The notes beneath the pieces were generated by a model that made no database searches, was not told the DNA's origin, and saw only the letters and a list, made by a program, of their open reading frames with translations. 64,000 bases of DNA. Origin: Hemileia vastatrix. Lineage: Eukaryota; Basidiomycota; Pucciniomycetes; Pucciniales; Zaghouaniaceae. The stretch spans positions 9,411,501-9,475,500 of the forward strand of contig JASXTE010000019.1 in NCBI GenBank assembly GCA_030280995.1, written 5' to 3'. The position numbers and the translations under genes are program-made. Below are positions 24,257-53,893 of this stretch, in pieces. How positions within the stretch are numbered: the stretch's first letter is position 1; each line of letters opens with the position of its first letter.

Positions 24257-24438
24257 AGGGGGTGTCAGTTCTGGCAAATCCACACTTACAAATCCGCACT
24301 TAAATAAGTGTGGATTTCCGAAACACACTAGCCCCAATACTGGTGGATTTCAAAATGAAATAAGTCACTTATTTCACTCAAATCCGCACTTTCTTAACCA
24401 AAAGTGCTGATTTCACCATAACATCTCATTTCACTGAT
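24257..24438 (+). repeat. H1 left terminal inverted repeat
   Basis: Nearly identical to the reverse complement of 31281-31448 except for an extra ACACTTACAAATCC-type stretch of about 14 bp. It contains an AATCCGCACTTAAATAAGTG subterminal palindrome. It ends about 50 bp before the uL14m ATG. Confidence 0.9.
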
Positions 24439-24486
24439 ACTCGTCACTCTCATCATAATCTCTATCTTCCTCCCTCTCCTCTCATC

Positions 24487-24987
24487 ATGCTCGGCCTCAA
24501 AGCAAAGATGCTCATCATTGAAAATTCTGGTGGGCTGATGGCTGAGTGCATCAACGTCCTCAAGTTCAAAGGACGCCCTGGTCTTGCCTCTGTCGGTCAG
24601 TCACTGGGTGGCCAAGGTTTTTCTGCTTCTTGTCCTTCATTCTGACATGTATCCATCATCTTTCTCCATCTCTCAAAAGGCGACCAAATTGTCTGCGTCA
24701 TCAAGCGGGCAAGACCCATCCCTCATACCCACTCTCCTTCTTCTTCCTCACATATCTCTGCCTCCAATAAAGTCTGCTGTGGTGATATTTGTAGAGCTGT
24801 CATTGTTTGTACCAAGAAAGAGTTCTCTCGCCCTGATGGTCGCACCATTTGTTTCGATGACAATACTTCTGTCTTGATTAACCAGAAAAACAAACTCTTG
24901 GGCACTAAAATTAACAGTGTGGTTGCTAGTGAATTAAGAGAGAAGGTCGGTCTCTGTCATTTGTCTTGGATTGTTTATGTATGGTAA
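24487..24987 (+). CDS. MRPL38: Mitochondrial large-subunit ribosomal protein uL14m, two exons
   Basis: Exon 1 is 24487-24595 and exon 2 24680-24987, with an 84-nt intron (donor GTCAGT, acceptor CAAAAG). The spliced product is 138 residues: MLIIENSGGLMAECINVLKF, then ASVG|DQIVCVIKRARPIP, then KVCCGDICRAVIVCTKKEF, SRPDGRTICFDDNTSVLIN, LLGTKINSVVASELREK. This follows bacterial L14 (IENSG, VGD, RPDG, FD.N..VL, GT.I.G.V..EL) with a Ser-rich insert. The C-terminus (LCHLSWIVYVW) is more diverged than the usual ISLAPEV. uL14 binds 23S-like rRNA at the subunit interface; this nuclear gene would serve the mitoribosome. No stop or frameshift. The ATG follows the H1 terminal repeat closely and the stop lies 55 bp before a second left-end repeat. 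Confidence 0.85.
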
Positions 24988-25041
24988 TCTATCATAATCT
25001 TCATCATTAACTCACTTCTCTTTCTCTTCTTCATCTCTATT

Positions 25042-25200
25042 AGGGGGTGTCAGTTCTGGCAAATCCGCACTTAACTTAAGTGCGGATTTCAAACCAAATC
25101 AGCACTTACAAAGCAGCACTTAAATTTTGCAAAAAAGTCACTTATTTCAAAAAAGGGTGTCAGTTATGACCTCAAATCAGCACTTTTTTCCCATTTTTTT
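25042..25200 (+). repeat. Second, diverged H1 left-end repeat
   Basis: Starts AGGGGGTGTCAGTTCTGGC, preceded by ATT, in the same orientation as 24257. It matches for about 35 bp and then only in its AATC(C/A)GCACTT and AAGTCACTTATTT modules. Because it points the same way as the outer left end, 24257-25041 is a repeated left-end unit enclosing uL14m, not an element with its own inverted repeats. Confidence 0.75.
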
Positions 25201-25412
25201 TCACAACCACATTTTGGAAACAAAACATCCCTTCCTTTCTTACCCCATCCCTGTCACATGTGACACACTGACCTTCCTCACTCCCTACCCATCAATCCTC
25301 GGCACACACCCCTTCCTAACATTTTCAACATTTTGACCAGGCATGTTTACATGCTTTTTTACTTATTTCTTCTACCTCTTAATCTTTTTTCTTGTTATGT
25401 GCCAGTTTCATA

Positions 25413-26730
25413 ATGCCTCCCAGACATTCCAAATCTCAAAAGGTAACTCAAAAATCTGCTTCGTCACAAAAGTCTCCTCGTAAAGCAAGCCCTACACCTT
25501 AAAAATCAAAGTCAGGTTCAGTTCAGCTTAAAAAGGATGATTATCTCATCATAATCAACTTCCTTAAAATAAAATCAAATTTTGAAGCATGTTTTGGATG
25601 TGAAAAGTCCACTCGTATTGGACGTCCACCTTCTTCAAAGGTAAATGGCTACTTATTGATGGCCAATGAAGTAAGGAAGAAAACAAAGGGGAGAATAGAT
25701 ATCAATCCTAAACAAATGAAGGAGAGATTTAAGAGTTACCAATCAAAATATAAAAAGGCTCATCATTCTGCAAATGAAACTGGATTTGGTATTGACAATG
25801 ATGATTTGGAGATTGGAATTACTACTGTTTCTGAAAAGCTCAATGTCATGTGTCCTTTCTATGAGGAAATGGATAATCTTTTTGGCTCCTGAGTTGATGT
25901 AAACCCTTGGTTTCTACACAATACTACTAAGAATATACCCTCTGGATCTCAACCATCAATTAATCCTCCTGAAATACCTGTACATCAACAGGATCAATCC
26001 CCTCCACCTTCTAACCATAGTTCAGCTGAAGATGATCCCGACTATCAAGCAGAACAATTATATTGCAGCAGATCTGAATCCTCAGAGGCCCAAAATTTAA
26101 ATGTATGTTTACTTTTTGTTTTTTCTTCAATTCTTCTCTGAATTTCTCTTTCTTTCTAGTCTCCTCCTACTCAAACTCAATCTCCATTAAATAATCTCGA
26201 TTCTGGAAATGTGAATCCCACTTTAGAGGCTGCTTTAGATGAACTTCCTGAAGCCTCTTGTTCAAACTCCAAACTAAAGCGTCAAGCTGCAACTTCAATG
26301 AACTTGAATCATCTATTAAAACGTGGTAATACTTCAACAAGCTCATTTCGCTCCCTTGAGGATTATTTTGAAAAAAAAGATATAAGTAAGTTTCGTTTAC
26401 TATATATCTTAATCATTAACTCATTTATTTATTTATTTCAATTTAATTTTGTCAGAAAAATCAACTATTGAAAATAATGCCCTTGACTTTGAGAAGATGA
26501 AGCTTGATCATATGCTAAGGAAAAATCAGCAAGCCTTAGATTTGGAAGAAAAAAAATTTGAGGCAGAGCAGATGGAAAGAGTAAATGACCGTCAATTTCA
26601 AAGAGAAATGGCTACTTGTGAATTGGAAAAACAAGAGAGTTTTAAAAAAAAAGATTTCATTATGGAATGTGTAAAAAATGGCCAATCTTATGAGGAAATT
26701 TAAAAATTACTTGACCTTTTCAATTGATAA
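25413..26730 (+). pseudogene. H1 Myb/SANT-like DNA-binding and coiled-coil protein gene
   Basis: Three exons with introns 26103-26159 (57 nt) and 26386-26455 (70 nt, GTAAGT...GTCAG). The N-terminal part is basic (MPPRHSKSQK). The central domain, VQLKKDDYLIIINFLKIKSN ... SKVNGYLLMANEV ... QMKERFKSYQSKYKKAHHS ... TGFGI ... CPFYEEMDNLFG, has the helical pattern of Myb/SANT- or MADF-like domains carried by many Harbinger elements (family knowledge). A C-terminal charged coiled coil follows (LDFEKMKLDHMLRKNQQALD), ending CVKNGQSYEEI. Stops at about 25500 (PTP*KSK), 25890 (GS*VDVN) and 26701 (EEI*KLL) break it. The H2 counterpart is 52025-53429. It probably binds transposon ends with the transposase. 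Confidence 0.65.
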
Positions 26731-27242
26731 ATTGTTTTTATAGTTAATTCAATTTTGTTTGATTTCTTTTTGGTAATATTTTCTTATATGCTGACTTATA
26801 AAAGGTCTTGAATATAGTACATTATTTTTGACAAATTTTTGAAAATATCATACATTTTTTCTATCTTTACATTCAAGTCAATAAGTTTGCTTATACTTTT
26901 ATTTTGACGAAAATTTGAAAATATAATAAAAATTTTCTATCTTTACTTTCATGTCAATAAGTTTGCTTATCTAAATACTTCTAAGTCAATAAAATTCAAT
27001 ATCTCTTTTGAAAATTTGGCAATACCCTCCCCTGCATTTTATTGAAACAAGGGGTGGGTACCACCAAATTTTTCTAAGTCATCAATTTCACATGTCAGAT
27101 TTAAAAAATTGGCAATACCCTCCCTGAATTTTATTGAAGTAAAGGGTGAAAGTCATCAAAATTTAATATAATTACATAAATTAATTAATATATAAATAAG
27201 TAATGTCAAATGTACTACCTTTAAAGTAATGACAATTCCTCC
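26731..27242. repeat. Intergenic tandem repeats between convergent Myb and TET genes (H1)
   Basis: Repeats centred on GGCAATACCCTCCCTGAATT followed by TTATTGAA(G/A)...GGGTG (about 27019 and 27110), plus an earlier pair built on CATTCAAGTCAATAAGTTTGC (about 26870 and 26945). The same GC-tagged motif is amplified in the equivalent place of H2 (51410-51850). Confidence 0.6.
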
Positions 27243-28631
27243 TGCCAAAATGCAGATCAAGTCTAGAAACTAGGTTTGGGACTTTCCACCGGTATAGGCT
27301 AGAGGAACCCCATGAAACAATTTAATGTTATCATGATTACCATTTATACAACACAAGGTCGTGGGCCCATTACTTTAGTTTCATAAATTAAAATATCATA
27401 TTTATTTATTATAAATTTATGGAAGAATATTAAATATTTGGTGACTCTACAAATCCTCATACTTTTTAGATCTACCTAAAGAATGTTTAAATTTATTACC
27501 TTTTTCTTCTTTTTTTAACTTGTTTATTCGTTGGATTAACTTTTGACTTATCTGGAAAGAGAAACCAAAATGTGTGAAGTCTTGACAAGATTCCAAACTT
27601 GGAGGAGCCTTTGTGGTTTGGTGATTATCGTAAGAATAATTCCAAACTGTTTTGATGATTCCATTTCCTAATCCAAAATCGATTATACATCTATGATCTG
27701 GGAAATATAATCCATGTCCTTTAATTTTAGCAGGTGACGGAATAGGTTGTCCAGTGATAGGATTAATATATGTGAAAAATCCATAAGTGAGGTAATTGGA
27801 ATCATTTTAGTCAGTGTGAATTCGATTATGAAATCCAGAATGAGTGATTATAACATTTGAAAACATTAGATAATCACTGCTAATATCTTATTATTCAGAG
27901 TCACACCAATTTGGTATTCCAAGTCTCATAGCAACTTCATGATTTTTTTCAAAAGCTTTATGGAAGAGTTTTTTAAGTCAAAGAGCAAGAAATGAATTAA
28001 ATAAAGGTAAAGTATTCCATTTTCGAAAATCATTATCTAATTCAGCTTTAGATAATGATCTGAGTAAAGAATATATACCTATTTGAATTAAATTCAGTAA
28101 AATGATATTAAAAAATTCAGAAAAATTTTTAAACATACCAAGAGAAAAACCTTTATCAAATCCTGGTCTCCATCCAATTCCAATCATGATTCCACCCAAC
28201 AAATTCTTATTCCTTAAAGATAAGAGAACCAAAGCCATTTGATAGAGTGTTATGATGAGATCTCAGAGTTGATTAAATGATTCATCTTTTAAACAATTAA
28301 AAGAATGGTTTTTGTAAATAAATTGAGGTTTGAAAGTATTATTAATAACAGCTTAAACTTCATCACCTCCAGTTTCAGTTAAATAATGTATATTTTCAGG
28401 TAACGTTTTTGGATATTTTTTTTCAACTTTAGTTTTATAGTACTTGATTTTTGAAATATGGCCAAATAATTGATCCAAGTGAATTTTTATTTTATAATTT
28501 CTTTTATTTCAATACTGTTCATTTTTTGAAAATGTTTTAGATGATTATTGAAAAGAAGTTGAATTTGAAGATGATAATGAAGTTAAAGAAGATGAGAGTG
28601 AGGTAAGTGGTGAATCTGAAGTTATAGACAT
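27243..28631 (-). pseudogene. H1 TET/JBP-like 2-oxoglutarate/Fe(II) dioxygenase gene
   Basis: Starts at ATG 28631 with a Ser-rich tail (MSITSDSPLTSLSSS). The fold-bearing part follows: LLGGIMIGIGWRPGFDKG and, after a 60-nt intron (28079-28138), SLGIYSLLRSLSKAEL; then THSGFHNRIHTD (candidate HxD iron ligands), YGFFTYINPITGQPIPSP, CIIDFGLGNGIIKTVW, YDNHQTTKAPP (candidate distal His) and HFGFSFQIS. This matches the pattern of fungal TET/JBP-like oxygenases, whose studied members oxidise 5-methylcytosine. A possible last exon (LFHGVPLAYTGGKSQT) lies at 27243-27370. Stops near HTD*ND and DSE**DIS and a 1-nt loss in the last exon make it a pseudogene. Its paralogue in H2 is 49750-51360. Confidence 0.7.
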
Positions 28632-28819
28632 GTATTTTTCTACTTAAAAATTTGTTACTTTTCAAACACCCAAAATTATACATCAAAAAAAACTCACTTA
28701 ATTTAAATTAAAAAAATAAAAATCCTCAAAAGACTAATAAGAATTTTTTTATTTCACTTGAACTTGATGAATATTTTTCTCTAAAATTAAAAAAAAAAAT
28801 TCAAAAAACTGTGAAATTT

Positions 28820-29490
28820 TTTTATCACCTCCCCATTCCCCTAAATTCCCCGCTCCAAACCCCTCTCCCACCTCCCCAAAACCCTTGTACAACCTCCCCC
28901 CCTCCATCCCCCTCCAAATCCTCCAAATCCCCCTCCAAATCCCCTCCAAATCCCCCTCCAAACCCCCCTTCAAATCCCCCTCGAAACCCCCTGCAACCCC
29001 CCCCCAACACCCCCTTCAATCCACCTCTTTTCCCCCCTCCAAATCCCCCTCAAAACCCCCCTACCCTCCCCTCAAATTTACTTAACAATTTGCTAACAAT
29101 TCGTTAAGTTAAGGAACGATTCATTACCGAATCGTTAAGGGAAGTTTAAGGGGGGGGTAGGAGGATTTGAGGGGGGGATTTGGAGGGGGGTTCGGGGCAG
29201 ATTGAAGGCGGGTTTGGAGGGGATTTAATGGGGGGATTTGGGGGATTTGGTGGGGGGTGGAGTGGAATGAGGGGAGGAAATGAGGAGACCAACAAGGGGG
29301 AGAAAGGGAGATATGAGACCAAAGAGGGAGAAAAGGGAGGTTAGAGTGAGCCAAGGAGGGGGGAATAAGGCAGTCAAAGGGGGGAAAAGGGGGATGTATC
29401 CATTCCAAGGAGAGGGTAAAGGTGGGAAAAAGCCCAGGCCAAGGGGGGATAAAGAGAGAAAAGAGGGAGAGGGAGAGAGAGAAAAAAAGG
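28820..29490. repeat. C-rich to G-rich strand-switch island upstream of TET gene (H1)
   Basis: About 270 bp of the plus strand is almost only C, T and A in CCCC(C)-TCCAAAT units. After a short AT centre with small inverted repeats (TTAACAATT, AACGATTCATTACCGAATCGTT) it flips to about 330 bp of GGGG-rich sequence with the complementary AGGATTTGAGGGG theme. It forms a long imperfect inverted repeat with many G-runs able to form quadruplexes. Pro-rich and Gly-rich ORFs here are artefacts. H2 has the counterpart at 48640-49260. Confidence 0.85.
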
Positions 29491-29910
29491 TTAATTTTAC
29501 CTATAAATTGAAAAACAACCACTTACAAAAAACAAAAACAAAACCAAAAAACTAAAAAACCAAAAAACCAAAAAAAAAAAAATTAGCAAAAAATTAAGTA
29601 AAAAAGATAAAATGACTTACCTGGAGAGATGAGTTGATAAAAAAGAAATATAAGTGAAATTGATTGAGTGATGTAGGAAGAGAGGAGAAAACGGATATGA
29701 GTGAAGAAAAAAAAGAGAGTGACTGAAAAAATATGTGTTTGCTGAAAATATGCGATTTCATGTTGAGTTGATGAAAGAAAACACAGAGAGATAAAAAAAA
29801 ATAAGACTTTAACAGCAAATTCAAAAACGAAAAAAATATGCAAAAAAAATTTACCATTCTCAGTGAATAACACATGCAAATTGATCATTTGAAGAGAATG
29901 AAAAAAAAAA
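29491..29910 (-). other. H1 spacer between transposase 3' end and strand-switch island
   Basis: A-rich on the plus strand. Homologous to 48235-48420 of H2: minus-strand TTTCATCAACTCAACATGAAATC corresponds to TTTCACCAGCTCAACATGAAATC there. It includes CTCATCTC(T/A)CCAGGTAAGT, a splice-like donor found in both elements, so it may be a 5' leader exon of the TET gene. The overlapping 90-100-codon ORFs are hydrophobic low complexity. Confidence 0.45.
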
Positions 29911-31176
29911 TTAAAATTGCGTTGAAAAATGTTGGAGTGTTATTGGAAGAATTTGTGCCCTTATACTAGTTGATTGAGAAATAAAAGTGTTGGATATAGT
30001 TGGAGGTGAATCAACTTGTTCATCTTCATACAGCTCTAACCATTGATCTTTTAGGTCATCAAGTAGGTTATGAAGTATAGTGCAACACAGAATCCAGTTG
30101 ATCGCCACCTCCATTTCAGATTTATTTCTAAGAGGATTTATTAATTCCCTTAAACTAGAAAAATGGCCTTTCAAGATTCCAATAGAATTTTCAATACGGA
30201 CTCTTGACTTTGCCAAATGATTGTTGAATTTGGCATTTTGACTGTCTTCTGAAGCTGCTCCCCAAAAAGCAGGAAGTACATACTTTCCATTCACATAAGC
30301 AGAATCTGCAAGAAGATACTGATCTTCATCAAAGAATTTTTCAGGTTCATTTAAAACTTGCATTCTTTGGAAGATGTAGGAGTCATGACATGAGCCAGGA
30401 TAGCCAGCGAAGAATGATATAAATTTTTTGTTTACGTCACATATAAGCTGAACGATAATTGAATATCTATAAAGAAGATATATTTGTTTGTGTTAGTTTC
30501 AAAGAGAATGAAAGCAGTTAAAAATAATCTACCTCTTTTTACGGTCAAAGTAATTGTTTCCACCTTGAGCAGGTTTCTGGCTCAAAGGAATAGTAGTACC
30601 ATCAACAAAACCAATACATCCTGGGAAGCCCTCTGCTTGCATAACCTGAGATGATTCAAGTCGCTCTTCTTTTGTTGGCCAGGTGAGAAGTTGAGATTCC
30701 AAGGAGTTGATGGCAGTGATACATTGTTTGGTATAAGTGTTAACTGAACCATACCCTAAATCAAAGACATTTTCTAAACATTTCAAAGCAGCTCCATTAC
30801 CATTTGAACCCAAACGACATAGTGTGATGGCCAATTGAATTGAAGGATGTCGTTGTTCTTTTTGAGAATTATTGTGAAATATGGGATGATCCTGAATAAG
30901 CTCAAGCAATTTAAGGAAACATTCCTGAAAAGTCCTGAACAGCTGTCTAAAACTGGGTGTAGATAGGTTAAGAAGTGTTTGGATGGTGTACTTGGGGGTA
31001 TGAAGTACTTGAGGCTTTCTGGGAAGAAGGTAACGTTTCCTGGCCATTTTTGATAAAACAACGAAATCTTCTTCTAGATAAGAATCAGAATCGGAATCAG
31101 AGTCCAAGAGCAGTTCAAGAGCCATGAAAGTCCTTGCTTTATGTAATTTATCACGATTTGAAAGTGAGGAAGGCAT
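29911..31176 (-). CDS. PIF/Harbinger DDE transposase (H1), two exons, intact
   Basis: Exon 1 is 31176-30533 and exon 2 30466-29911, with a 66-nt intron (GTAGAT...TATAG) joining DRKK(R) to YSIIVQL. The product is 399 residues with no stop or frameshift. Helical N-terminal region: FRQLFRTFQECFLKLLELIQ, HPSIQLAITLCRLGSNGNG, then LGYGSVNTYTKQ. DDE_4-type nuclease motifs: GCIGFVDGTTIPL (first Asp), GYPGSCHDSYIF (second Asp), YLLADSAYVNGKYVLPAF, RVRIENSIGILKGHFSSLR (Glu). Ends PITLQHFSTQF. It would cut and rejoin the H1 terminal repeats in the nucleus, usually with a Myb-like partner. H1 could be transposition-competent if the partner is supplied in trans. Confidence 0.93.
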
Positions 31177-31280
31177 AACTCTTATATGATATTATATGAA
31201 GATGTAAATGATGTACAATGTTTTGAGTTATGAAGTGTTATGCTGCGGAGTGCTGCATATGAATGGGATGATGCTGACAA

Positions 31281-31448
31281 ATCAGTGAAATGGGACTTGA
31301 TGGTGAAATCAGCACTTTTGGTTTAGAAAGTGCGGATTTGAGTGAAATAAGTGACTTATTTCATTTTGAAATCCACCAGTATTGGGGCTAGTGTGTTTTG
31401 GAAATCCGCACTTATTTAAGTGCGGATTTGCAAGAACTGACACCCCCT
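31281..31448 (-). repeat. H1 right terminal inverted repeat
   Basis: 168 bp, reverse complement of 24257-24438. The transposase ATG lies 105 bp inside it, so the repeat may contain its promoter. Confidence 0.9.
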
Positions 31449-31609
31449 ATTGTTGTTACTTTATTAATATTTAAATGTGTGTACAATTTGTAGTGAAAGA
31501 AATATCAAAGTCAAAGATTTTCTAGCGCGCATACGTATATCACTTGCCACATTTTGTGTCATTCTATATTTGCTTACTTTTTGTTTAACAATTCAACTCA
31601 AAATTATCG

Positions 31610-37379: not shown

Positions 37380-37421
37380 AGTTAAGTTGCAAATAGATTT
37401 GGGTATTCTGTTTATGAGATA

Positions 37422-41230: not shown

Positions 41231-41249
41231 AATAGGGGGTATCAATGTT

Positions 41250-41415
41250 CAGGGATCGGCAATTAGGGATCAGGATTTTTTTTCCCGGGATCAGACATTA
41301 TTAATTGCGGAAGATTCTTATCCACTAGACCCAGGGCTAGTGGATAAGGAATCTACAATAATGCATTATCCCGCCTCTTTTACCCTGATTTCTATCCCTA
41401 ATTCCTGATCCCAAA
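41250..41415. repeat. Subterminal imperfect palindrome in H2
   Basis: Outer arms GGGATCGGCAATTAGGGATC against CCCTAATTCCTGATCCC. Centre (41317-41348) is a perfect 12-bp hairpin, CTTATCCACTAG and its complement around ACCCAGGG. It may be a nested foldback element or a transposase binding array. Confidence 0.7.
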
Positions 41416-41612
41416 CTCATCTCATCCATGATGGATTTGCAAGAAAGTCACATGACTCATAATTGCTGATTCCATCCTTAAGTCTTTCCTCACTCTATGC
41501 TACTTAATTTTGGTGGCACAAAATTAAAGTTTTTTTCTATCTACACACCCCAACTGCACATTTGGCATTAAATTCCCACTTCCCTCATCACATAAGCCTT
41601 CCACGAACAACT

Positions 41613-42873
41613 ATGAAACACCTCTCTACTAGGCAGCTACTTTACTCAAATATGAATGCTATTGCTTTACTTTTAGCCCTTTACTATAAAACAGACTCTG
41701 ATTTGGAAGATGCTTTAGCCTATATGTCTTTTATTTCCAAAAAGTGTTACATAAACCCAAGGTGGAGAAATCTTCATCATGATCCCAGATATGATCTCTG
41801 CTCCATTATCAACATTCCTCAACTAAACTTCACCCAACTTTTTAGAAATTCTCCCAACTCTTTCTTCAAACTTTATCAACTCATCTCCAATCATCCTATC
41901 TTTCATAACAATTCCCATAGCAAACAGCGTAATCCTGCCATCCAACATGCTTTTGCACTATGTTTCTTTGGCTCAAATAGAAATGGTGCTGATGTAAGAC
42001 ATTTGGATAATCTCTTTAACATAGGATATGGTACTGTGATATTATACACCAAGCGCTGTATGATTAATATCCTTTCCCTCAAGTCTCAAACACTTGCTTG
42101 GCCAACTCCAGAACAGTGACTTAAAACCTCTCAAGTAATGCAAGCTGAAGGTTTCCCTGGCCGTGTAGGATTTGTTGATGGCACAACTATACCTTTGAGT
42201 CAAAAGCCTGCTCATGATGGCAACCATTATTTTGATTGCAAAAAAAGGTTTCTTCAAAATCTTCTCCAATTTCTCATCCTTCATAAACCAACTTTTTATC
42301 TTCTTTCTAGATACTCTATTGCCGTTCAACTTGTATGCAATGTCAATAAAAAATTTATTGCTTTTTATAGTGGCTGCCCTGGCTCATGTCATGACTCTTC
42401 CATCTTCCAAAGAATGAGGATTTCTCAAACCCCTGACTCATACTTTGACAAATCTCAGTACCTCCTTTCAGACTCAGCATATGCAAGTGGAAAGTACATT
42501 ATACCTGCTTTCCATGGTGCAAGTTTAGAAAGTGACCCCAAAACTGCCTTTAATTATCACCTTGCCCAATCAAGAGTACAAATTGAACATGCTATAGGTA
42601 TTTTAAAGGGACAATTTTCTAGTCTTCGGGAGCTCAGAATCCAATTAAAAAAAATTGGAGATCAAAACTGCAAATCATTGGATCATGACTTGCATTATAA
42701 TCCACAATATCCTAGCTGATTTAAAGGATGAGTGGAATGAACTTTATGAAGAAGAGTATCCTGAACCAGCACCGGCTCTCCCCTCCCTTGAATCACAAAA
42801 CATTCATTCAACTGGCATACACTCTGTCATTATGCCTATTACTCTCCAACATTTCTCTTCACCACCCTTTTAA
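41613..42873 (+). pseudogene. PIF/Harbinger DDE transposase (H2)
   Basis: From ATG 41613 (MKHLSTRQLLYSN). A 63-nt intron (42248-42310, AG|GTTTCT...TCTAG) sits at the same codon as in H1 (KK(R)|YSIAVQL). Motifs: GRVGFVDGTTIPL (Asp), GCPGSCHDSSIF (Asp), LLSDSAYASGKYIIPAF, RVQIEHAIGILKGQFSSLR (Glu). An in-frame TGA at 42117-42119 (PEQ*LKTSQVMQAEGF) and a 1-nt shift near 42650 (after IQLKK; resumes as EIKTANHWIMTCIIIHN) disable it. The C-terminus PITLQHFSSPPF matches H1. Confidence 0.92.
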
Positions 42874-43000
42874 ATTATTTTTTGTACTCTCCAAATGTCC
42901 TCTTTGTGTACTTTATTCACTTGTTTTGGTATTTTGGTTTGTTGCATATTCATTTTTTTTTTTGGAATTTATGGTGAATATCTTTTTTTTGGATGGCTCA

Positions 43001-43360
43001 TGTTGAACGTAGATTACTAACTTAGTATTAGCTATAGAAGTCTAGTAGTTAACCTATTACATACGTAGAATTTACTAATTGTCTAAACCTAACCTGATGA
43101 TATCATGCAAAGCATATATGGGTGAGGAGCCGCATCCTTGTTCCTCATCCACTCTCTTTTCTATTTTATTATTTACTTTATTTTATTTTATTTATTATTA
43201 TTATTTTATTTTTCTTTCTTCAATTAACGATTAACAAATCATTCACCCTTATCTGTCCCTATCCAGTCCTTTTGTCCATTTCATTGTCCTGTCCTGTCCT
43301 TGTGTTCCCACCGTCCATACTAGCCTAGAAGTCCTACTTACCTGCTGCCTAATTCCATCA
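43001..43360 (+). repeat. 5' LTR of copia-1
   Basis: 360 bp, TG...CA. The same sequence, with a few substitutions and a 16-bp T/A-rich length difference, begins the 3' LTR at 47484-47859. Confidence 0.95.
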
Positions 43361-43361
43361 G

Positions 43362-43375
43362 GGTTATGGGCCCAG
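43362..43375 (+). promoter_or_regulatory. Copia-1 primer binding site of the initiator-tRNA half type
   Basis: GGTTATGGGCCCAG lies one base after the LTR. It is complementary to the anticodon stem-loop of initiator methionine tRNA (CUCAUAACCC-like), as in Drosophila copia, rather than to a tRNA 3' end. Copia-2 has GGTTATGGGCTC in the same place. Confidence 0.8.
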
Positions 43376-43470
43376 CGCCCCTGCATCTTTAATCGAAGCT
43401 GGCTACTCCTGACACCCCAATATCCCTCAGCAAATCCACTGACTCTGAATCGTCATCTGCGTATACGGCC

Positions 43471-46400
43471 ATGCCTGAATCTTCCTCCACTCCATCTCCT
43501 AACTTTTCTTATCTCCAAGACTCCTCTAACTACTCTGAGATCAAAGGACTAGAAAAGCTAAACGATAAAAATTATAGCGTATGGAAGACTGACCTTAAAT
43601 ATGCACTTACCGTCAGGAATCTCGATCAATTCCTTTCTGAGGACTGCCCCATCCCCTCAGATCCGGACTTGCTGTCGATCTTCAATATTCGCAAAAGGCA
43701 AACCAATACGATCATCAAAATGTTTATGGATCGTTCAAATCAAAACAAATTCATTCTTGATGATGACGCAGTGGAACCAGCTGAATTATGGACTCGAATT
43801 AAAAATCACTACGCTTCCAAATCTAGTCAAAATTGTTCCTTCGTTATTAATAAACTCTTCAAAATTAAATTCAATGAAGGCAATATTATGGAAGCGATGG
43901 ACGACTTTCGAAGCAACATTAAATTACTTCGTGATGTTGCTTTGGATCTTTTCAAGGACAATATTTTATTGTATATTATGGCTAATTACGTTCTCAATCT
44001 CCTTCCTGAGTCATACCAAACCTTTGCCTCAATCATCTTGAGCAAGTACGATATCACCAACCTACGACCAACTATAGAAGGCATATTTGGCGATATTGAA
44101 GTTGAGGTAATCAAACGGAAAACTCTTAATTCCACTAACTCAACATCTGGGACAGCACTATCAATAGACACCAAATCTAAAGTGTTTTGCTCAAAAGGAC
44201 AACATAACCCTCTAGCTCCCCACCCCGAATCCTCGTGCTTTCAGTTACATCCTGAAAAGCGTGATGAATTCTTGAAACGAAAGAAGGAGCGAGAAAATAA
44301 GGACAACAATGCTAAAGATTTATCCGTATTCTCGGACATTCCCCTCAATCACGCCATCCTGGACAGTGGCGCATCCTTCTCTATATTCAACTCACTCAAA
44401 TTCTTCTCTTCCTACAAACCCGTCAAACTATCTCTATCAATGGCAAATGGAGACGAACTACTCGCCCTTGGACAAGGAAAAGTAACGTTCTCTTCATCAT
44501 CCGGCCATCTCTTCAACATCGAAAATGCACTATATGCACCAGATGTAAAGGCTAACTTAATTTCAGCCGTTGATTTATTACTTGATGGGTGGAGTTTGGT
44601 CAAGGAAGACGGAACTTTTAAAATTAAAAATAAAAATGCAACACATTTTGAATGTGCCATAATAGGACGAATTATTACTTTTCCCTTATCCACTCCTTCT
44701 ATATTCAATATTTCCCCACATGAGGAAAATCATCTTCAACTCCTTCATCACAAGTATGGTCACCCGAATAATCAGGTCATGAAGCAGCTATTTCCAGGTT
44801 TGAATTTCACTAAATTCAGTTGTAGAACCTGTGCACTTGCTAAGTCTCATGTATTACCATATGGTGGTACTTTTCCGACTCCCAAAAACCCCCTCGATGT
44901 TGTACATATGGATTTGTGCGGACCTATCACTCCAGACTCTAAAGGGGGGAAATCTTACTTCTTCCAAATAGTGGACGGTCACTCACGATACCGACACACT
45001 TACTTCCTCAGCCTGAAATCGGAAACCTATGAGATTTTTTGTGATCATCAAATCATGGTTGAAAATCAACTTTCCCGATCCATCAAATGCGTTGTTTCTG
45101 ACAACGGTGGGGAATTTACCAGCAACGCCATGAAAAATTTATTCAAAAACAATGGTATCCTTCATCTTCGAACTGCTCCTTACTCACCGCAACAAAATCC
45201 GATAGCTGAGCGTGGAAACCGATCCATAGTTGAAAAGGCCAAATGTCTACTTATCGAGTCAGGACTAGATTCCTATTGGTGGGCTGAAGCGGTCAACACA
45301 GCCACCTTCCTGTTGAATATACTACCCTCATCAGCTCTAGACAATTACAAAACTCCCTGGGAACTCTGGCACGACGGTAAAGTCAAAACTCCTCAACAAC
45401 TACATCCATTCGGGTCAGATGTGGTTTATTATCAACAAAAGCACATGCGAAGTGGTAAATTTGGACCTAGTGGAGAGGAAGGGATTTTTCTGGGTTATTG
45501 TGAGGGTCACCTCAACTATCGCATCTACTCACCCAGTACTGATTCTATTTTAATTACCCATAACGTTAAATTCCTAAACTCTTTCACACTAGCTCGTAAA
45601 ATTACCAAAGGACAACCTGTCGAAACACTTGTGTTTCCCGAACTTGAACACTTCTCAATTCAGTCACCAGCTATCACTTCACCTCCCCCTAATCCTCAGA
45701 CTGCCTCTGAAATCAACTCAGAAATCTCTGAGAATTCAGACCCTCTACTGGAGATACCAGTCCCCATTGATCCCGATCTATCCACTGATCTCCCATCCGC
45801 CCCTAAAAACTATGCTTATGTCGACAAAAATCTGAAACCTCCTCACGAAATCAATTCCTCCATTGACACATCAAACATCTTGACCACGAAGCGCAGAGGA
45901 AACCAGATCAACATGGTAGTTACTCCCTTTGACACACCTAACTCATTCTACAATGCTCTCAATTCTCCTGAACGCGAAAAATGGCTCAATGCCATCAATG
46001 CTGAATTATCTAGCATCACCAGGCATAATGTCTGGGAAGAGACTCCCCCTCAATCAAACAATCATCTATTGGGAACCACCTGGACCTTCAAACGAAAAAC
46101 CGATTCCGAAGGTAACATAGTCAAGTACAAAGCCAGGCTGTGTGTACAAGGGTTTGCACAAATCGAGGGCATTGAATACAATGAAACCTATGCACCCACT
46201 GGCAGATTAAACACCTTACGTTTCCTTCTCGGTCTCGCAGCCTTCAAGGGATGGGAGCTTCACCAGATGGATGTGAAATCCGCCTTCTTACACGGGGAAC
46301 CCGACGAAGATCTATACCTTCGATTTCCCAATGGATACTCCCCTCAAAATCCTAATCATTGCCTACACTTAAAGAAATCTTTGTATGGGCTGAAACAGAG

Positions 46401-47472
46401 TCCCAGGTGTTGGTACCGCAAGCTCAGTTCTTTCTTCACTGATATTGGTTTTCGAGCAAGCAAAGCCGAACCCTGCTTATTTCTCAACACTGATTCAACT
46501 CATCCCTGTTATGTCTTCATACATGTTGACGACTTGATCATCGGTGGTCCCTCAGTTCAAGACTTTAAGGACAAAATATCTCAAGTATTTGACATGGATG
46601 ATCAAGGTGAACTCAAATGGGTCCTTGGTATGAAGGTGACTCGAGATTGGAACGCTAAAACCATCAATCTTTCACAAGAACTTTATATATCTAAGTTATT
46701 AAGTGAATTCAATCATCAAGACTGTCGGTCTGTTACCATTCCCCTAGTTCCCAATTCTCATTTTTCCACCTGCTCTTCGAATCAATTAACCAAGCTCTTC
46801 AATTACCGAAGGGCAATTGGTCTCCTCAATTATCTAGTTCTATGCACCCGTCCTGACCTGGCCTACGCTGCCTCTACCTTAGCCCAGTACTTGAATGAGC
46901 CTTCAGATCAACAGATACAGGCTTTCTTTCATATACTTCGTTATCTTCAACTAACCAAAACTTTCTGCTTAACCCTTGGTAACGTAGGTGAATCTCATAT
47001 TGGCCAATTAACTGGTTATGCGGATGCCAACTACAACAAATCCGAGGATTATAAATCTACATCCGGAACTCTTGTTTTTCATTTAGGATTGATTAGCTGG
47101 CAATCAAGTAAACAACAATCCGTCGCACTCTCCACCTCAGAAGCTGAATACTATGCAATGACTGATTGCGGTCAGGACCTGTTGTGGACTAAGGAACTCT
47201 TCAATGACTTCTCAATCCCTCTTGACAAGTCCATCCTCTGCGGCGACAATAAAGGCGGCATAAATCTGGCTCTCAATCCCCTTTATCAGCATCGCACCAA
47301 ACACATCAACACGAAGGTACACTGGTTACGCGAACAAGTGAACAATGATGAATTCACCATTGAGTATATCCCCTCAGCTCAAATGATTGCTGACGTTCTG
47401 ACTAAGCCCTTGCCAAGACCTAAACATCACCAATTTCTCAAATCACTCAATCTCTTGCCATTGCTTTCTTGA
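43471..47472 (+). CDS. Copia-1 gag-pol polyprotein, 1333 residues, intact
   Basis: In order: gag (KLNDKNYSVWKTDLKYAL, residues about 30-210); a His/Cys stretch HNPLAPHPESSCFQLHPEKR in place of a standard knuckle (about 245); protease AILDSGASFSIFN (about 295); GAG-pre-integrase HHKYGHP...CRTCALAK (about 430-460); integrase HMDLCGPIT (Asp), VVSDNGGEFTSN (Asp), QQNPIAERGNRSI (Glu); RT KARLCVQGFAQIEG, MDVKSAFLHGEPDEDLYL, LKKSLYGLKQSPRCWY, active site FIHVDDLIIGG; RNase H GYADANYNKSED, LSTSEAEYYAMTDC, DNKGGINLA, HINTKVHWLREQV, MIADVLTKPL. All catalytic residues are present with no stop or frameshift. It copies its own RNA in cytoplasmic particles and integrates the cDNA. Confidence 0.97.
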   Translation: MPESSSTPSPNFSYLQDSSNYSEIKGLEKLNDKNYSVWKTDLKYALTVRNLDQFLSEDCPIPSDPDLLSIFNIRKRQTNTIIKMFMDRSNQNKFILDDDAVEPAELWTRIKNHYASKSSQNCSFVINKLFKIKFNEGNIMEAMDDFRSNIKLLRDVALDLFKDNILLYIMANYVLNLLPESYQTFASIILSKYDITNLRPTIEGIFGDIEVEVIKRKTLNSTNSTSGTALSIDTKSKVFCSKGQHNPLAPHPESSCFQLHPEKRDEFLKRKKERENKDNNAKDLSVFSDIPLNHAILDSGASFSIFNSLKFFSSYKPVKLSLSMANGDELLALGQGKVTFSSSSGHLFNIENALYAPDVKANLISAVDLLLDGWSLVKEDGTFKIKNKNATHFECAIIGRIITFPLSTPSIFNISPHEENHLQLLHHKYGHPNNQVMKQLFPGLNFTKFSCRTCALAKSHVLPYGGTFPTPKNPLDVVHMDLCGPITPDSKGGKSYFFQIVDGHSRYRHTYFLSLKSETYEIFCDHQIMVENQLSRSIKCVVSDNGGEFTSNAMKNLFKNNGILHLRTAPYSPQQNPIAERGNRSIVEKAKCLLIESGLDSYWWAEAVNTATFLLNILPSSALDNYKTPWELWHDGKVKTPQQLHPFGSDVVYYQQKHMRSGKFGPSGEEGIFLGYCEGHLNYRIYSPSTDSILITHNVKFLNSFTLARKITKGQPVETLVFPELEHFSIQSPAITSPPPNPQTASEINSEISENSDPLLEIPVPIDPDLSTDLPSAPKNYAYVDKNLKPPHEINSSIDTSNILTTKRRGNQINMVVTPFDTPNSFYNALNSPEREKWLNAINAELSSITRHNVWEETPPQSNNHLLGTTWTFKRKTDSEGNIVKYKARLCVQGFAQIEGIEYNETYAPTGRLNTLRFLLGLAAFKGWELHQMDVKSAFLHGEPDEDLYLRFPNGYSPQNPNHCLHLKKSLYGLKQSPRCWYRKLSSFFTDIGFRASKAEPCLFLNTDSTHPCYVFIHVDDLIIGGPSVQDFKDKISQVFDMDDQGELKWVLGMKVTRDWNAKTINLSQELYISKLLSEFNHQDCRSVTIPLVPNSHFSTCSSNQLTKLFNYRRAIGLLNYLVLCTRPDLAYAASTLAQYLNEPSDQQIQAFFHILRYLQLTKTFCLTLGNVGESHIGQLTGYADANYNKSEDYKSTSGTLVFHLGLISWQSSKQQSVALSTSEAEYYAMTDCGQDLLWTKELFNDFSIPLDKSILCGDNKGGINLALNPLYQHRTKHINTKVHWLREQVNNDEFTIEYIPSAQMIADVLTKPLPRPKHHQFLKSLNLLPLLS

Positions 47473-47483
47473 GCACGGGAGGG

Positions 47484-48233
47484 TGTTGAACGTAGATTAC
47501 TAACTTAGTATTAGCTATAGAAGTCTAGTAGTAAATCTATTACATACGTAGAATTTACTAATTGTCTAAACCTAACCTGATGATATCATGCAAAGCATAT
47601 ATGGGTGAGGAGCCGCATCCTTGTTCCTCATCCACTCTCTTTTCTATTTTATTATTTTTCTATTTTATTATTTACTTTATTTTATTTTTATTATTATTAT
47701 TATTTTATTTTTCTTTCTTCAATTAACAATTAACAAATCATTCACCCTTATCTGTCCCTATCCAGTCCTTTTGTCCATTTCATTGTCCTGTCCTGTCCTT
47801 GTGTTCCCACCGTCCATACTAGCCTAGAAGTCCTACTTACCTGCTGCCTAATTCCATCAGGTAACTTTGTACGTATGCTCTACTAAAGCAATGTCATCTG
47901 ATCCACTCTCTTTTCTATTTTATTATTTTTCTATTTTATTATTTACTTTATTTTATTTTTTTTATTATTATTATTTTATTTTTCTTTCTTCAATTAACGA
48001 TTAACAAATCATTCACCCTTATCTGTCCCTATCCAGTCCTTTTGTCCATTTCATTGTCCTGTCCTGTCCTTGTGTTCCCACCATCCATACTAGCCTAGAA
48101 GTCCTACTTACCTGCTGCCTAATTCCATCAGGTAACTTTTCCTTTTGTCCATTTCATTGTCCTGTCCTGTCCTTGTGTTCCCACCGTCAATACTAGCCTA
48201 GAAGTCCTACTTACCTGCTGCCTAATTCCATCA
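47484..48233 (+). repeat. 3' LTR of copia-1 with partial tandem amplification
   Basis: Unit A (47484-47859) is a full LTR. It is followed by GTAACTTTGTACGTATGCTC and a partial LTR copy, unit B (about 47900-48130), then GTAACTTT and a shorter copy, unit C (about 48139-48233). Each ends CTGCCTAATTCCATCA. The 5' LTR has a single unit. The real end is fixed by the target duplication after unit C. Confidence 0.88.
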
Positions 48234-48238
48234 GCTCA

Positions 48239-48639
48239 TTGGTTTTCTTTCACCAGCTCAACATGAAATCACATATTTTCTGAAATCACATATTTTGTCA
48301 GTGATATTTTTTTTTCATTCATCACTCATATCCTTTTCATCCTCTCCTCAAACATCACTCAAATATTTTGCTTACTTTTATTTTCTCAACTCATCTCACC
48401 AGGTAAGTCTTTTTTTTCTTTTTTCTTGTTTTTTATTTGCTAATCATGAATTTTTTTATTTTGCTTTTTTTTGTTTTTTTTTTGTTTGTTTTTTTTTTTT
48501 TGTTTTGTTTTTTGTTTTGTTTTGTTTTTTGTTTTTTTTGTTTTTTTTTTTTTTGTTTTTTTTGTTTTTTTTTTTTTGTAAGTCCTTTTTTTTATTTTCA
48601 AGGTTAGACTAATTTTTTTTTCTTATTTTTCTCTTTTTT
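48239..48639 (+). other. H2 spacer, leader of TET gene region
   Basis: Resumes H2 after copia-1. Homologous to minus-strand 29600-29780 in H1 (CTCAACATGAAATC, CACTCATATCC, CTCATCTCACCAGGTAAGT). Then T and TTTTG runs (48400-48580). The 105-codon ORF is low complexity. Confidence 0.55.
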
Positions 48640-49260
48640 TTCTCTTGTTCACCCTCTTTAGCTGCCTCATTTCACCCCTTTTCCTCTCTATTTACCTGCC
48701 TCAAGTCACTCCTTCTCCCCTCTCTTTATCTTTCTCAAGTTCCCCTTTTTTCACCCTCTATACCTGTCCCGAATCCCCCCTTTCCCCCCTCTTTAGATGC
48801 CTCATGACCCCCCTTCCCCTCTCTTTAGGCACCTCATGACCCCCCCTTCCCTTTAGGTACCTCAACCCTCCCCCCTTCTCTTCTCTTTAGCCACCTCAAA
48901 TCCCCCCTTCCCCCCCTTCCACTCCCCTTAACCTGCCTCTACCCCCCTCCTTCTTAATAAACGATCGCTAACAATCATTTTTTAGGAAGGAGGAGGGGCT
49001 AGAGGTGGCTTAAGGGGGGTGGAAGGGGGGCCTTTGAGGTGGCTAAAGAGGGGGGGAAAGGGGGGGGTTTGGGACATCTAAAGAGGGGTGAAGGGGGGGT
49101 TTGGGGGGTTTTGAGGCAATTAAGGACGGGGTTTCAGGGGGATTTTGAGGCAGGAAAGGAGGGGATTTGAGGGGGGTTTTGAGGAAAGGAGGGAGGGATT
49201 TTATAGGGGATTTCAGAGAAATAAAGGGGGGGAAAGGGGACTTTTATGGGAGTTAAAGAG
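48640..49260. repeat. C-rich to G-rich strand-switch island upstream of TET gene (H2)
   Basis: Plus strand: about 310 bp of CCCC/CTTT-rich units (CCTCTTTAG.(C/T)(A/G)CCTCA), an AT centre (TAATAAACGATCGCTAACAATC), then about 300 bp of GGGG-rich complement-like units (GAGGTGGCTAAAGAGGGG). Same placement relative to the TET ATG as in H1, though the actual unit sequence differs. Confidence 0.85.
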
Positions 49261-49749
49261 GGGTTAACTACTTTCTGAAAAACATACTAAAAAATTTGTT
49301 TTTTGTAATTTTTTTTTTTGATAGAATTTTAGAAAAAAAAAATCTTTTACATTCTGTTAAGGTCTTTCCCTGTAAATTACAAAACAAAAAAAGTTTAGAT
49401 TTTAATTTAATAATTTTACTGAATTTAATTTTTTTTTTTAAATTTATTTGTTTTGATTTTTCTTTTACTGATTTTTTTTTTAATTTTTAATTTTTTTTTA
49501 AATTATTTTGTCAGGATTTTCTGTGAAGGGTTTTTATAACCAAACTTCAGGTTTTCTTTTGTATTTTTTTTTGAAATAATTTTTACTGAAAATTATTATA
49601 TTTTTTTTTTGTTTTAAAAATTTTTCTTAAATTCTTTTTAAAAGGATTTTGCTTTAAATTTTATTTTAAAAGATATTATTACGTGAGTTTTTTTTTAAAA
49701 AATGCTGTGAATTTTTTTTTGACATTTAAATTTTTTTCAGATCAAAAAA
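49261..49749. other. T/A-rich leader upstream of H2 TET ATG
   Basis: Homopolymeric T and A runs; no gene. Short Phe-rich ORFs are artefacts. Confidence 0.5.
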
Positions 49750-51360
49750 ATGTCTTCTTCTTCAGATTCACCCCTTACTTCTCTATCATCTTCATCTTTA
49801 TCCTCTTTATCATCTTCATCTTTATCATCTCTATCATCTTCTTCAAAATCAACTTCAATACAATCATCTTCTAAATCATCAAAAAAAATTAATGATAATC
49901 AGTCTCAACAGAATAAAAGATATCTGAAAAAAAAATTTTTCTTCTAAATCATCAAAAAAAATTAAAGATAATCAGTCTCGTCAGAAAAAAAGATATCTGA
50001 AAAAAAAAGATTCATCTTCTAAATCATCAAATAAAAAACTAAGGATAATCAGTCTCATCAGAAGAAAAGATATCTGAAAAAAAAATTCTCTGTGAAAGTT
50101 TTTTTTGTCATATCACAAACATCTTTTTTCATAAAACTAAAGTAGATAAAAAAAATCAATATCCAAACAAATTACCAGAAGATATCAAATATATAACCAA
50201 ATTTGGAGATGATTGAGTTGTTGCAGTTATCAGTAATACTTATAAGGCTCAATTCATTTTTGAAGTTCATTCATTTGATGGTGTAAAAGATGAATCTTTT
50301 ATTCAATTATCCGATCTTATCATAACTCTTTATCAAATGGATTTGATTTGGTTACCTATAAGGAATACGAATTTGTTGGGTGGTATCATGATTGTATTTG
50401 GTTGGAGACCTGGTTTTGTTGAAGGATATTCTCTTGGTATGTATAATAATTTTTGTTCCATTATTTATATCATTTCACTTATTTCAATTATATAGGCATA
50501 TATTCATTGCTCAAGAATATCACTAAAGCTCAAAAAGATGAAGATTTTTGCTTATGGGACACTCTACCTTCCTTTAACTATTTTCTTGCTCTTTGACTCA
50601 AAAAGCTCTGTAATAAAGCATTTGAAAAAAACCATGAACTTGCAGCCAAAGTTGGAATACTGAATTGGTGTGACTCCAAATGGGAAGATATCACCCACAA
50701 ATATCTTTTATTTTCTAATTTTATTATCACTCATTCTGGATTCCACAATAGGATTCATATCAATAGGAATGATGCCAATTTTCTTACTTTTGGTATATTC
50801 TCATATATCAATCCAATAACTGGCCAACCAATACCATCTCCAGCTAAAATCAAAGAACATGGTTTATATTCTCCAGACAACCAATGCATCATTGATTTTG
50901 GTTTAGGAAATGGTATCATCAAAACTATTTGGAATTCTTCTCAGGATAATCATCATATGACCAAAGCTCCTCCTGGTTTGGAATCCTGTCTAGATTTCAC
51001 ACATTTTGGTTGCTCATTTCAAATCAGTCATAAGTTGATTCAAAGAATCAACAAGGTAAAAAATAAAGGTAAAGTTAATCGATTTAAAATAAATTTATCT
51101 AGATCCAAAAAGTATGGGATTAGAGTTGTCATCAAAAAATTTATATTTTTTCATAAATTTTTAATAAATATTTTTTATATATCAATTTGCTCAACTAAAG
51201 TGATGAGCCAAAGACCTTTGGTTGTATAACAGGTAATCATGATAACATTTATTTGTTTCATGGGGTTCCTCTAGCCTATAGCTGTGGAAAGTCCCAGACT
51301 TTTGTTTCTAGATTTGATCTGCATTTTGGCTTGAGGAATTGTCTTTACTTTAAACTATAG
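49750..51360 (+). pseudogene. H2 TET/JBP-like 2-oxoglutarate/Fe(II) dioxygenase gene
   Basis: ATG 49750, Ser-rich tail (MSSSSDSPLTSLSSSS), then three tandem Lys-rich repeats of about 70 bp (49872-50095). Core: PEDIKYITKFGDD*VVAVI, LLGGIMIVFGWRPGFVEG and, after a 59-nt intron (50437-50495), SLGIYSLLKNITKAQKDED; FIITHSGFHNRIHIN (the Asp of HxD is now Asn); FSYINPITGQPIPSP; CIIDFGLGNGIIKTIW; QDNHHMTKAPP; HFGCSFQIS. A possible last exon reads NIYLFHGVPLAYSCG, FVSRFDLHFGLRN to TAG at 51358. Disabled by stops, the iron-ligand change and frameshifts in the Lys-rich part. Intron position and order match H1. Confidence 0.7.
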
Positions 51361-51404
51361 AAATTGATATATATTAGATATTTATTTAATAATTTATGTA
51401 ATTA

Positions 51405-51850
51405 TATTAAATTTGGATGACTTCCACCCCTTACTTCAATAAAATGCAGGTGGGGGGGTATTGCCAGATTTTCAAATCTGACATTCAAAATTGAAGACTT
51501 GTAAAAATTTTGGTGATACCCACCCCTTGCTTCAATAAAATGTAGGGGGGGTATTTCCAAATTTTTAAATGTAACATGTAAAATGTTTGACTTGTAAATA
51601 TTTTGGTGAAAAATTTTTGGTGATACCCATCCCTTACTTCAATAAAATCCAGGGGGGGGTATTGCCAAAATTTCTTATAAGACTTGTGAAATTCTTGACT
51701 TGTAATAATTTTGGGGATACTGGCAAAATGCAGGGGGTAGTAAAGCCAAAGTTTCATATAAGACTTTCAAGATTCATGACATGAAAGAATTTTGGTGATA
51801 CCCACCCCTTACTTCAAAAAATTCCAGGGGTGGGGGATTGTGAAATTTTC
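51405..51850. repeat. Tandem repeats between convergent TET and Myb genes (H2)
   Basis: Four to five units of about 100-125 bp, each containing GGTGATACCCA(C/T)CCCTT and ACTTCAATAAAAT then CAGGGGGGG(T)ATTGCCA and a GACTTGTAA(A) segment. Related to the pair at 27019-27170 in H1. ORFs here are artefacts. Confidence 0.8.
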
Positions 51851-52024
51851 AAAGGAGAAATGAAAATTTTATTTAAAAAAAGAATATTTAACTTTAAAAT
51901 ACAAAAATTCAAGTAATGATTGATTTCAAGTAATGTTTGATAGAGTAATGAAATACATGAAATTATTGTAAATTTTATGTACAAATAAATATTAACAGTT
52001 GAAGTGTGAGAGAAATAAAACAAA

Positions 52025-53429
52025 CTAGTCATCAAAAAATCTCTTTAAACGTTCAATTTCCTCAACAGATTTATTAGCTTTAACACATTCTATCAAGAAA
52101 TCTTTCTTTTTGGAATTTTCTTCATGATCAAACTTATATTTCATCTGCTCTAATAGGTTTTGATGTTTGAGTGTTTTCTTCACTTTTTTTGATTTTTCAA
52201 TACTTAGAGTTAACTCAAACTTCTTCTCCTCCAAATCTCGGGCCCAATCATCCTTCCGTAAAGAGAGCTTGTACTTCCTCTCCTCCAAATCTTGGGCCCA
52301 ATCATCCTTACGTAAAGAGAGCTTGTACTTCCTCTCTTCCAAATCTTGTAGCCTATCATCCCTCCTTAAAGAGAGCTCATATTTCTTCTTTTCAAAGCTT
52401 AGAGTCTCTTTAGAAATTTCCACTTGTTCTAGAGTGATAATAAAAATTAATATAAAGTAGAAGAAAAGTAGAGTAAAGTAATAAGAGGTATGGTATCACT
52501 TACCAGCATCACGTTTCTCTAAAAATTGTTCCATAGACAAAAAAGGGGTTTGTGATGAAGTATCACTATTTTTTCTTCTTTGGGAGTGGAAATATAGACT
52601 ACTTGAAGACCTACGCTTCTTGTTCAAGGTCCTATTTTCCTCCTCATCATTGTCACTACCTTCAGACTCAGTTGATTGAGGATCCTGGGTTTGTTTGTCA
52701 GCCTTTTAAGAAATAAGAAAAAGATAAGTAAATAAAAATATAGAACTGATTAGATAAAAGAAAAAAGAAGCAGACCTGAGTTAGATTTGGTTGGGTTAAA
52801 TCACCAACAGGATCTACAGAAAAGCTATCTAGATTTGTCTAATTCAAATGAGGGGAGGCTTGAGTGGAGGAAGAGGATGGGAAAAGATTTGCTTCAAAAT
52901 CATGTTAGGAGATAGGATCTTCTCCATCCAACATGTTTACAGGATTAACATTGGCTTTCTCTCCAAAGATTTCATCCATCTCTTTAAAGTAAGGACATGA
53001 AGATTCAAGTTTATTGTCTATGGATTTGATACCCTTAGTTATATCGATGTTGGCAACCCCAAAACCAGTGGAAGATGAAAGAGCCTTTGCCTTCTTGAGT
53101 TTGGTTTGGTAATGCTTGAAGCGTTCAGACATCTTTTTAGGCAAAAGATCAATCCTTCATTTGGTCTTATTCTATAATTCATTTGCCATTAGAAGATAGA
53201 CATTAACTTTTGATGCTGGGTGCAATCTTACTTTAGTTACATACTCAGTACCAAAACAAGAATCATAGTTAGATTTGGTTTTCAGCCAGTTGATAAGAAT
53301 GAGATGATCATATTTTTTTAATTGAACAGTCTTAGATTTCTCAGCTGAGTGGGGGAAAGAGGGAGTAGTGGGATTTGAAGAACAACTGGGTGATGGCTGC
53401 CTTTGAGAAGATCTAGGATGATGAGGCAT
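52025..53429 (-). pseudogene. H2 Myb/SANT-like DNA-binding and coiled-coil protein gene
   Basis: ATG 53429 (MPHHPRSSQRQPSPS). DNA-binding-like domain: VQLKKYDHLILINWLKTKSN, ASKVNVYLLMANEL, KKMSERFKHYQTKLKKAKAL, TGFGV, CPYFKEMDEIFG. The linker exon (ADKQTQDPQSTESEGS ... FLSMEQFLEKRDA) lies in 52500-52710 between introns (acceptor near 52707, donor near 52502). The C-terminal exon 52423-52025 has an 18-residue heptad unit (YKLSLRKDDWAQDLEERK) in about 3.5 copies and ends CVKANKSVEEIERLKRFFDD. Stops near 53170, 53156, 52902 and 52840. Partner of the H2 transposase by analogy. Confidence 0.65.
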
Positions 53430-53893
53430 GTTAAAATATAAATGAAGATGAAAAGGAGAAGAATCAAGGAGATGAGATAGAGAGATGAAAAGGAGCAGAA
53501 ACAAGCATATGAGATAGAAAGATGAAAAGGAGCAGAAACAAGCAGATGAGATGGTGAGGGGATCTGAGTGGATAGAATGAACAGGATGGGATGAGAACGG
53601 GAGTGAACAGAAAGGTAGAAGGCATATCCAGAGAGTAGTCCAAGATGTGGTTTTGGCGGAATGTAGGTCAAGATGTGGTTATGACAGAAAGTTTTCCAAG
53701 ATGTGGTAATGAAAAATTGAGTAAAAAAATGTTGGATAAATGGTGAACATTGACATGTAAAGTGTCTAATAACCCAATTATTAGCAAGAATAATTGCTGA
53801 AGATAATTGGGGTATGCAGATTATTTTCTGCAAATAATTTAATTGTGGATTGGCCAACATTGATACCCCCTAATATATATACAAGAATTATTA

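Follow-up and report, generated by a model that had tools for sequence, protein, structure and literature searches.

The window analysed here is a stretch of 64,000 nucleotides from the rust fungus Hemileia vastatrix (assembly GCA_030280995.1, contig JASXTE010000019.1, positions 9,411,501 to 9,475,500 of the forward strand), with a guanine–cytosine (GC) content of 34.0% and many transposon-like reading frames. It contains two diverged PIF/Harbinger DNA transposons, H1 and H2, which occupy separate TA sites approximately 10 kb apart and each of which carries a TET/JBP-like oxygenase gene between a DDE transposase gene and a third gene (Table 1). The ends, the profile matches and the gene order agree in this respect with the original prediction, which had been made from the letters of the sequence and had placed two such elements at separate sites. 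The relative orientation of the three genes is alike in both elements, H2 being H1 reversed, and the matching introns that had been predicted were found in both: the transposase intron at the KKR motif is 66 nt long in H1 and 63 nt in H2, and the intron of the TET-like gene (hereafter TET) inside the SLGIYSLL motif is about 60 and 59 nt long, respectively. An open frame is retained only by the H1 transposase, while both TET genes, both third genes and the H2 transposase are broken.

The terminal sequence of H1 (TAGGGGGTGTCAGTTCT) is found at 24256 on the forward and 31449 on the reverse strand, and that of H2 (TAGGGGGTATCAATGTT) at 41233 and 53872, respectively. The limits of the elements were drawn with TA as the target duplication, which, judged from the element ends themselves, was found at both ends of both H1 and H2; given these duplications, the elements originally proposed are real, with limits that had been set one to two bases too wide. 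H2 is likewise one Harbinger element, as predicted, although the copia element inside it had been left unseparated. The two ends of H2 match each other over only about 20 bp, compared with the 187-bp outer repeats of H1. A second copy of the H1 terminal sequence forms an inner left end; the ATG of the third gene lies 370 bp after it, and 441 bp from the element end in H2, and positions 25043–31447 may form the core of the H1 element. A short element of approximately 200 bp with ends like those of H2 (GGGGGTATCAAAGTT) directly adjoins H2 at 41033–41229; it is a relative without genes that may depend on the same transposase.

Table 1. Features of the H1 and H2 elements and of the sequences lying within them, in positions of the window.
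Feature	Position	Strand	Characteristics
H1 Harbinger element	24258–31447	.	TA duplications 24256–24257 and 31448–31449; outer terminal inverted repeats of 187 bp with 87.7% identity
Ribosomal protein L14 gene fragment, two exons	24487–25041		Between outer and inner left ends of H1; PF00238, 1.1e-22 and 0.0047 in two pieces
H1 inner left end (second terminal-sequence copy)	25043–25151	+	Terminal sequence found at 25041; 77% identical to right end over about 110 bp
H1 third gene	25413–26703	+	Two introns; at least one in-frame stop; weak Myb/SANT-like match in 25503–25889
H1 noncoding block 3' of TET	26975–27440	-	82% identical to H2 51130–51600 over 463 columns
H1 TET/JBP-like 2OG-Fe(II) oxygenase pseudogene	27447–28631	-	HxD and distal His kept; at least five in-frame stops in conserved part
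H1 TET 5' leader	29530–29830	-	About 81% identical to H2 leader (277 columns)
H1 PIF/Harbinger DDE transposase	29911–31176	-	Exons 31176–30533 and 30466–29911; 399 amino acids, open; catalytic D192, D269, E307
H2 Harbinger element	41235–53870	.	TA duplications 41233–41234 and 53871–53872; split by copia element
H2 DDE transposase pseudogene	41613–42870	+	One in-frame stop and one frame break
Copia long terminal repeat (LTR) retrotransposon, inside H2 and not part of it	43001–48233	+	1359-amino-acid open frame; 5-bp duplication GCTCA at 42996–43000 and 48234–48238
H2 TET/JBP-like oxygenase pseudogene	49752–51229	+	HxN replaces HxD; several breaks including stops
H2 noncoding block 3' of TET	51130–51600	+	Conserved with H1 block
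H2 third gene	52025–53429	-	At least one in-frame stop; 49% identical to H1 third gene over 252 codons

Both transposases matched the DDE_Tnp_4 profile (PF13359) above the curated cut-off (9e-23 for H1 and 1e-21 for H2). Among the matches listed for the H1 transposase (the best 120 of 147 proteins), the closest were those of Puccinia coronata and P. striiformis (53–54% identity), the best Austropuccinia psidii protein had 45% identity, and no near-identical protein was present. The profile search proposed for the TET-like products likewise gave a match in each element: one TET piece per element exceeded the 27-bit cut-off of 2OG-FeII_Oxy_6 (PF20515, Tet-like), with 1.8e-9 and 38.4 bits in H1 and 3e-17 and 63.8 bits in H2. 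The second piece scanned scored 13.3 bits against this profile in H1 and had no match in H2. A search with a 210-residue piece of the H2 TET, in which only proteins of similar length were considered, returned 34 candidates, three of which matched (38–44% identity), two of them from Puccinia triticina and P. sorghi. The iron ligands HxD and the distal His are common to the H1 TET and these three relatives; the H2 TET has HxN. The frames of the TET genes end near 27447 and 51229 and not at 27243 and 51360, as had been predicted, no codon pattern being visible beyond: mismatches between H1 and H2 by codon position numbered 29, 25 and 28 past the TET frames versus 15, 16 and 45 within the final exon of TET.

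The ratio of nonsynonymous to synonymous rates (omega) between H1 and H2, estimated by maximum likelihood (ML), was 0.089 for TET and 0.056 for the transposase; both values, obtained near saturation, point to past purifying selection. Several results weaken the case for a TET/JBP enzyme here. Both genes are broken, the conserved part of the H1 TET consisting of six open pieces separated by gaps of 3, 3, 3, 6 and 3 nt, and the Asp ligand is missing in H2. The AlphaFold model of TET was unusable for the double-stranded beta-helix fold (mean predicted local distance difference test (pLDDT) score 39.1), a PDB sequence search with the TET profile gave no match at E-values up to 1, and a PDB sequence search with P0002 gave one chance-level match (E-value 0.83). 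Since both TET genes are broken, neither can be assumed to work today.

A system of this type has been described before. In the part of the paper by Kojima (2025, published in December 2025; PMC12730594) on which we draw, fifteen TET-bearing Harbinger families with TA duplications, named PHISTA, are reported from six rust fungi, and an escape from methylation is proposed for them. The linkage of TET to Harbinger-type DDE transposases, originally put forward as a new cargo system, had thus already been described in rusts together with the TA duplication, and therefore the central claim of novelty is already in print; H1 and H2 are added family members of the published kind and not a new kind of system. 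PHISTA and H1/H2 have in common a Harbinger transposase, a TET/JBP gene, a third gene, a TA duplication and a rust host. The comparison is with PHISTA as a group. The KDZ transposons (Kyakuja, Dileera and Zisupton) are also DNA transposons with a TET/JBP gene, as H1 and H2 are; however, they belong to another transposase superfamily and have longer target duplications (8 bp in the Dileera family of P. graminis). Nuwa, with 3-bp duplications and two proteins, and canonical PIF/Harbinger elements differ from H1 and H2, which have TA duplications and a TET gene (PMC12730594). Transposon-like reading frames abound around both loci, and host TET genes might have come to stand there beside or inside Harbinger copies by chance and not as cargo. 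However, TET lies between two genes, in a matching place and direction, in two diverged elements with separate ends, and the same class of arrangement has been published (PMC12730594), so that a chance placement is extremely improbable.

A tree of transposases was built from 36 rows, with a root for drawing only and with H2 filling just 38% of the columns. H1 and H2 paired weakly in it (support 89/74) and formed, together with seven Puccinia rows, a nine-row clade (96/98). With seven A. psidii rows and one Phakopsora row, this clade was part of a group of 17 rows (100/98), in which the other 15 rows were all rust proteins; 10 more rust rows fell outside it.

The third gene was originally labelled as encoding a Myb/SANT protein, a label that holds for one sub-threshold match in H1 and is not shared by H2. 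An open 129-residue piece of the H1 third gene matched Myb_DNA-bind_4 (PF13837) with 1.6e-4 and 22.5 bits, and none of 10 shuffled versions of this piece matched any family; a Myb/SANT-like domain in the H1 third protein is considered likely on the basis of this profile match. Against it stand the score itself, which lies under the cut-off of 27, the lack of any match among the H2 third-gene pieces in the same profile scan, and the statement, in the part of the PHISTA paper referred to above, that the third protein of those families is without a Myb/SANT domain (PMC12730594). The weak Myb_DNA-bind_4 match of the H1 protein is accordingly a difference from PHISTA as described there, and, if true, such a domain would bring H1 and H2 nearer to the ordinary Harbinger type than PHISTA is as published. 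No homologue of the third protein was found among two candidates (129-residue query, only proteins of similar length considered). PDB sequence searches gave no match with the third-gene profile at E-values up to 10 and one chance-level match with a third-gene piece (E-value 1.5), and the structure model, all helical with a mean pLDDT of 41.5, was unusable.

Where H1 and H2 encode the same residue, the codons differed in 0.536 of 207 cases in the transposase, 0.508 of 120 in the third gene and 0.346 of 214 in TET, with saturation expectations of 0.573, 0.509 and 0.467, respectively. At two-fold residues, the corresponding frequencies were 0.456 of 90, 0.397 of 73 and 0.152 of 99 (saturation 0.418, 0.407 and 0.279). 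The ML codon model gave synonymous divergence (dS) of 5.9 for the transposase, an unbounded value for the third gene and 1.84 for TET; forcing a single dS on TET and the transposase cost approximately 5 log units, as read off the profile. The Nei–Gojobori proportions of synonymous differences (0.52 for TET versus 0.75 and 0.77) are so close to saturation that they were given no weight. Four-fold sites weigh on the other side: differences amounted to 0.544 of 79 in the transposase, 0.613 of 31 in the third gene and 0.565 of 69 in TET, and transversions to 0.367, 0.516 and 0.420, respectively, so by these sites TET does not look younger than the transposase. By several measures, the four-fold sites not being among them, TET and its flanks have diverged less between the two elements than have the transposase and the third gene.

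The flanks were compared with the aid of 100 base shuffles; in this comparison, the limits of the H1 TET intron were displaced by two bases, and the H2 leader stretch included about 20 bases of the copia element at its start. The alignment scores were 15 standard deviations (SD) above the shuffled ones for the TET leader and 41 SD for the 3' block, compared with 0.6 and 1.8 SD for the third-gene introns, -0.3 to 1.8 SD for the third-gene introns with the 3' side, 3.5 SD for the transposase intron, 5.5 SD for the TET intron and 5 to 8 SD for the end regions. The similarity of the 3' block between H1 and H2 is without codon pattern. A search of the whole window against Rfam, the 3' block included, gave no match at the gathering score; eight sub-threshold matches were obtained for H1 26900–27460, H1 copy only, the best with an E-value of 0.0055 and 26.2 bits versus a gathering score of 106. 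A search for transfer RNAs on the conserved block found none, and its core can form a long hairpin that is not clearly better than shuffles (folding z-scores of -0.73 to -1.40). The stretches between the TET leader and the coding sequence (28895–29244 in H1 and 48652–49263 in H2) contain C-rich repeats turning into G-rich ones, which form imperfect inverted repeats with units differing between H1 and H2. A C-rich stretch with a very strong GC skew (-0.786) at 12001–13000 is perhaps similar to them.

These comparisons bear on whether the three genes were inherited as a unit, which had been predicted and is now doubtful, as TET and its flanks are less diverged even though four-fold sites show no difference. 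Co-inheritance from one TET-bearing Harbinger ancestor, with TET only looking younger owing to constrained flanks and a different base composition, is a reading that we regard as somewhat improbable and still worth serious weight. It agrees with the like order, orientation and intron positions, with the equal four-fold sites of the transposase and TET, and with the weak grouping of the two transposases; moreover, the flanks (about 17–18% mismatch) are more alike than the synonymous sites of TET itself, and therefore flank constraint, and not recent exchange, could explain them. On the other hand, the ML dS, the two-fold sites and the noncoding flanks all place TET closer, and rust TET genes have been found to cluster by host genus and not by transposon superfamily, according to the part of the paper of Kojima cited here (PMC12730594). 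Exchange or homogenisation of the TET module is, on balance, moderately supported by these comparisons as a better reading than constrained flanks.

The two parts of H2 had ratios of observed to expected CpG of 0.19 and 0.13, compared with 0.31 for H1, 0.28 for the window as a whole and 0.70 for the frame of the young copia element inside H2; TpG/CpA was raised only mildly in H2 (1.03–1.26). The low CpG content of H2 is suggestive of methylation-driven decay of old elements, with the copia frame differing from them in coding pressure and age. In the portion of a rust genome study referred to here, DNMT1 and DNMT5 are reported from each of its 12 genomes (PMC12210899).

Taken together, H1 and H2 are probably decayed copies of two diverged PHISTA-type Pucciniales PIF/Harbinger families that carried TET as an anti-silencing enzyme in a module not wholly tied to the transposase chassis. 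An intact transposase would have excised the element and integrated it at TA, probably helped, under the general Harbinger scheme, by the Myb/SANT-like DNA-binding third protein. The TET/JBP enzyme, for which we infer activity and an anti-silencing role, would have been expressed from its own leader and would have oxidised 5-methylcytosine in the element or close to it, which may have countered its silencing and CpG mutation. Once the chassis had diverged, the families appear to have exchanged TET and its flanks or homogenised them, a reading to which the divergence data lend moderate support. Alternatively, the enzyme might aid transposition or transcription otherwise than by removal of 5-methylcytosine, acting on thymine or 6-methyladenine, or producing 5-hydroxymethylcytosine as an activating mark; such a role is left open in the consulted part of the paper of Kojima, where fungal CcTET is said to act also on 6-methyladenine (PMC12730594). 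The CpG depletion of H2, although indirect evidence, fits cytosine methylation as the pressure on these elements, and we think this alternative unlikely.

The ribosomal protein L14 gene fragment, a further difference of H1 from PHISTA, has an intron at 24596–24679 (favoured among four trial splices), and its block ends at the H1 inner end. We take the fragment to be of the mitochondrial type. It is probably a host gene captured by H1, judging from its position between the outer and inner left ends. Among four papers listed for gene capture, Harbinger and rusts, no report of such a capture was found by title and the beginning of the abstract. The LTRs of the copia element within H2 show 5 differences over 362 aligned sites, and additional partial LTR copies are present on its right side. 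Elsewhere in the window, broken copia-like frames (35462–39299) and large Gypsy-like frames (4110–10291), judged from their translations, lie on the reverse strand. A broader proposal would have a TET module of approximately 3 kb, including a conserved leader of its own and, downstream, a conserved noncoding block (perhaps RNA or regulatory), moving from one Harbinger chassis to another, such that the anti-silencing function would spread independently of the transposase and the elements would also capture host genes, as with the L14 fragment in H1; as a whole, this is doubtful.

Transposons with a DNA-demethylation-type enzyme offer a view of the arms race between silencing and escape. To this, H1 and H2 contribute the following: the transposase may differ in its history from the TET module; the noncoding sequence flanking TET is preserved unusually well; H2 is marked by CpG loss; and the third protein may, after all, belong to the Myb/SANT type usual in Harbinger elements.

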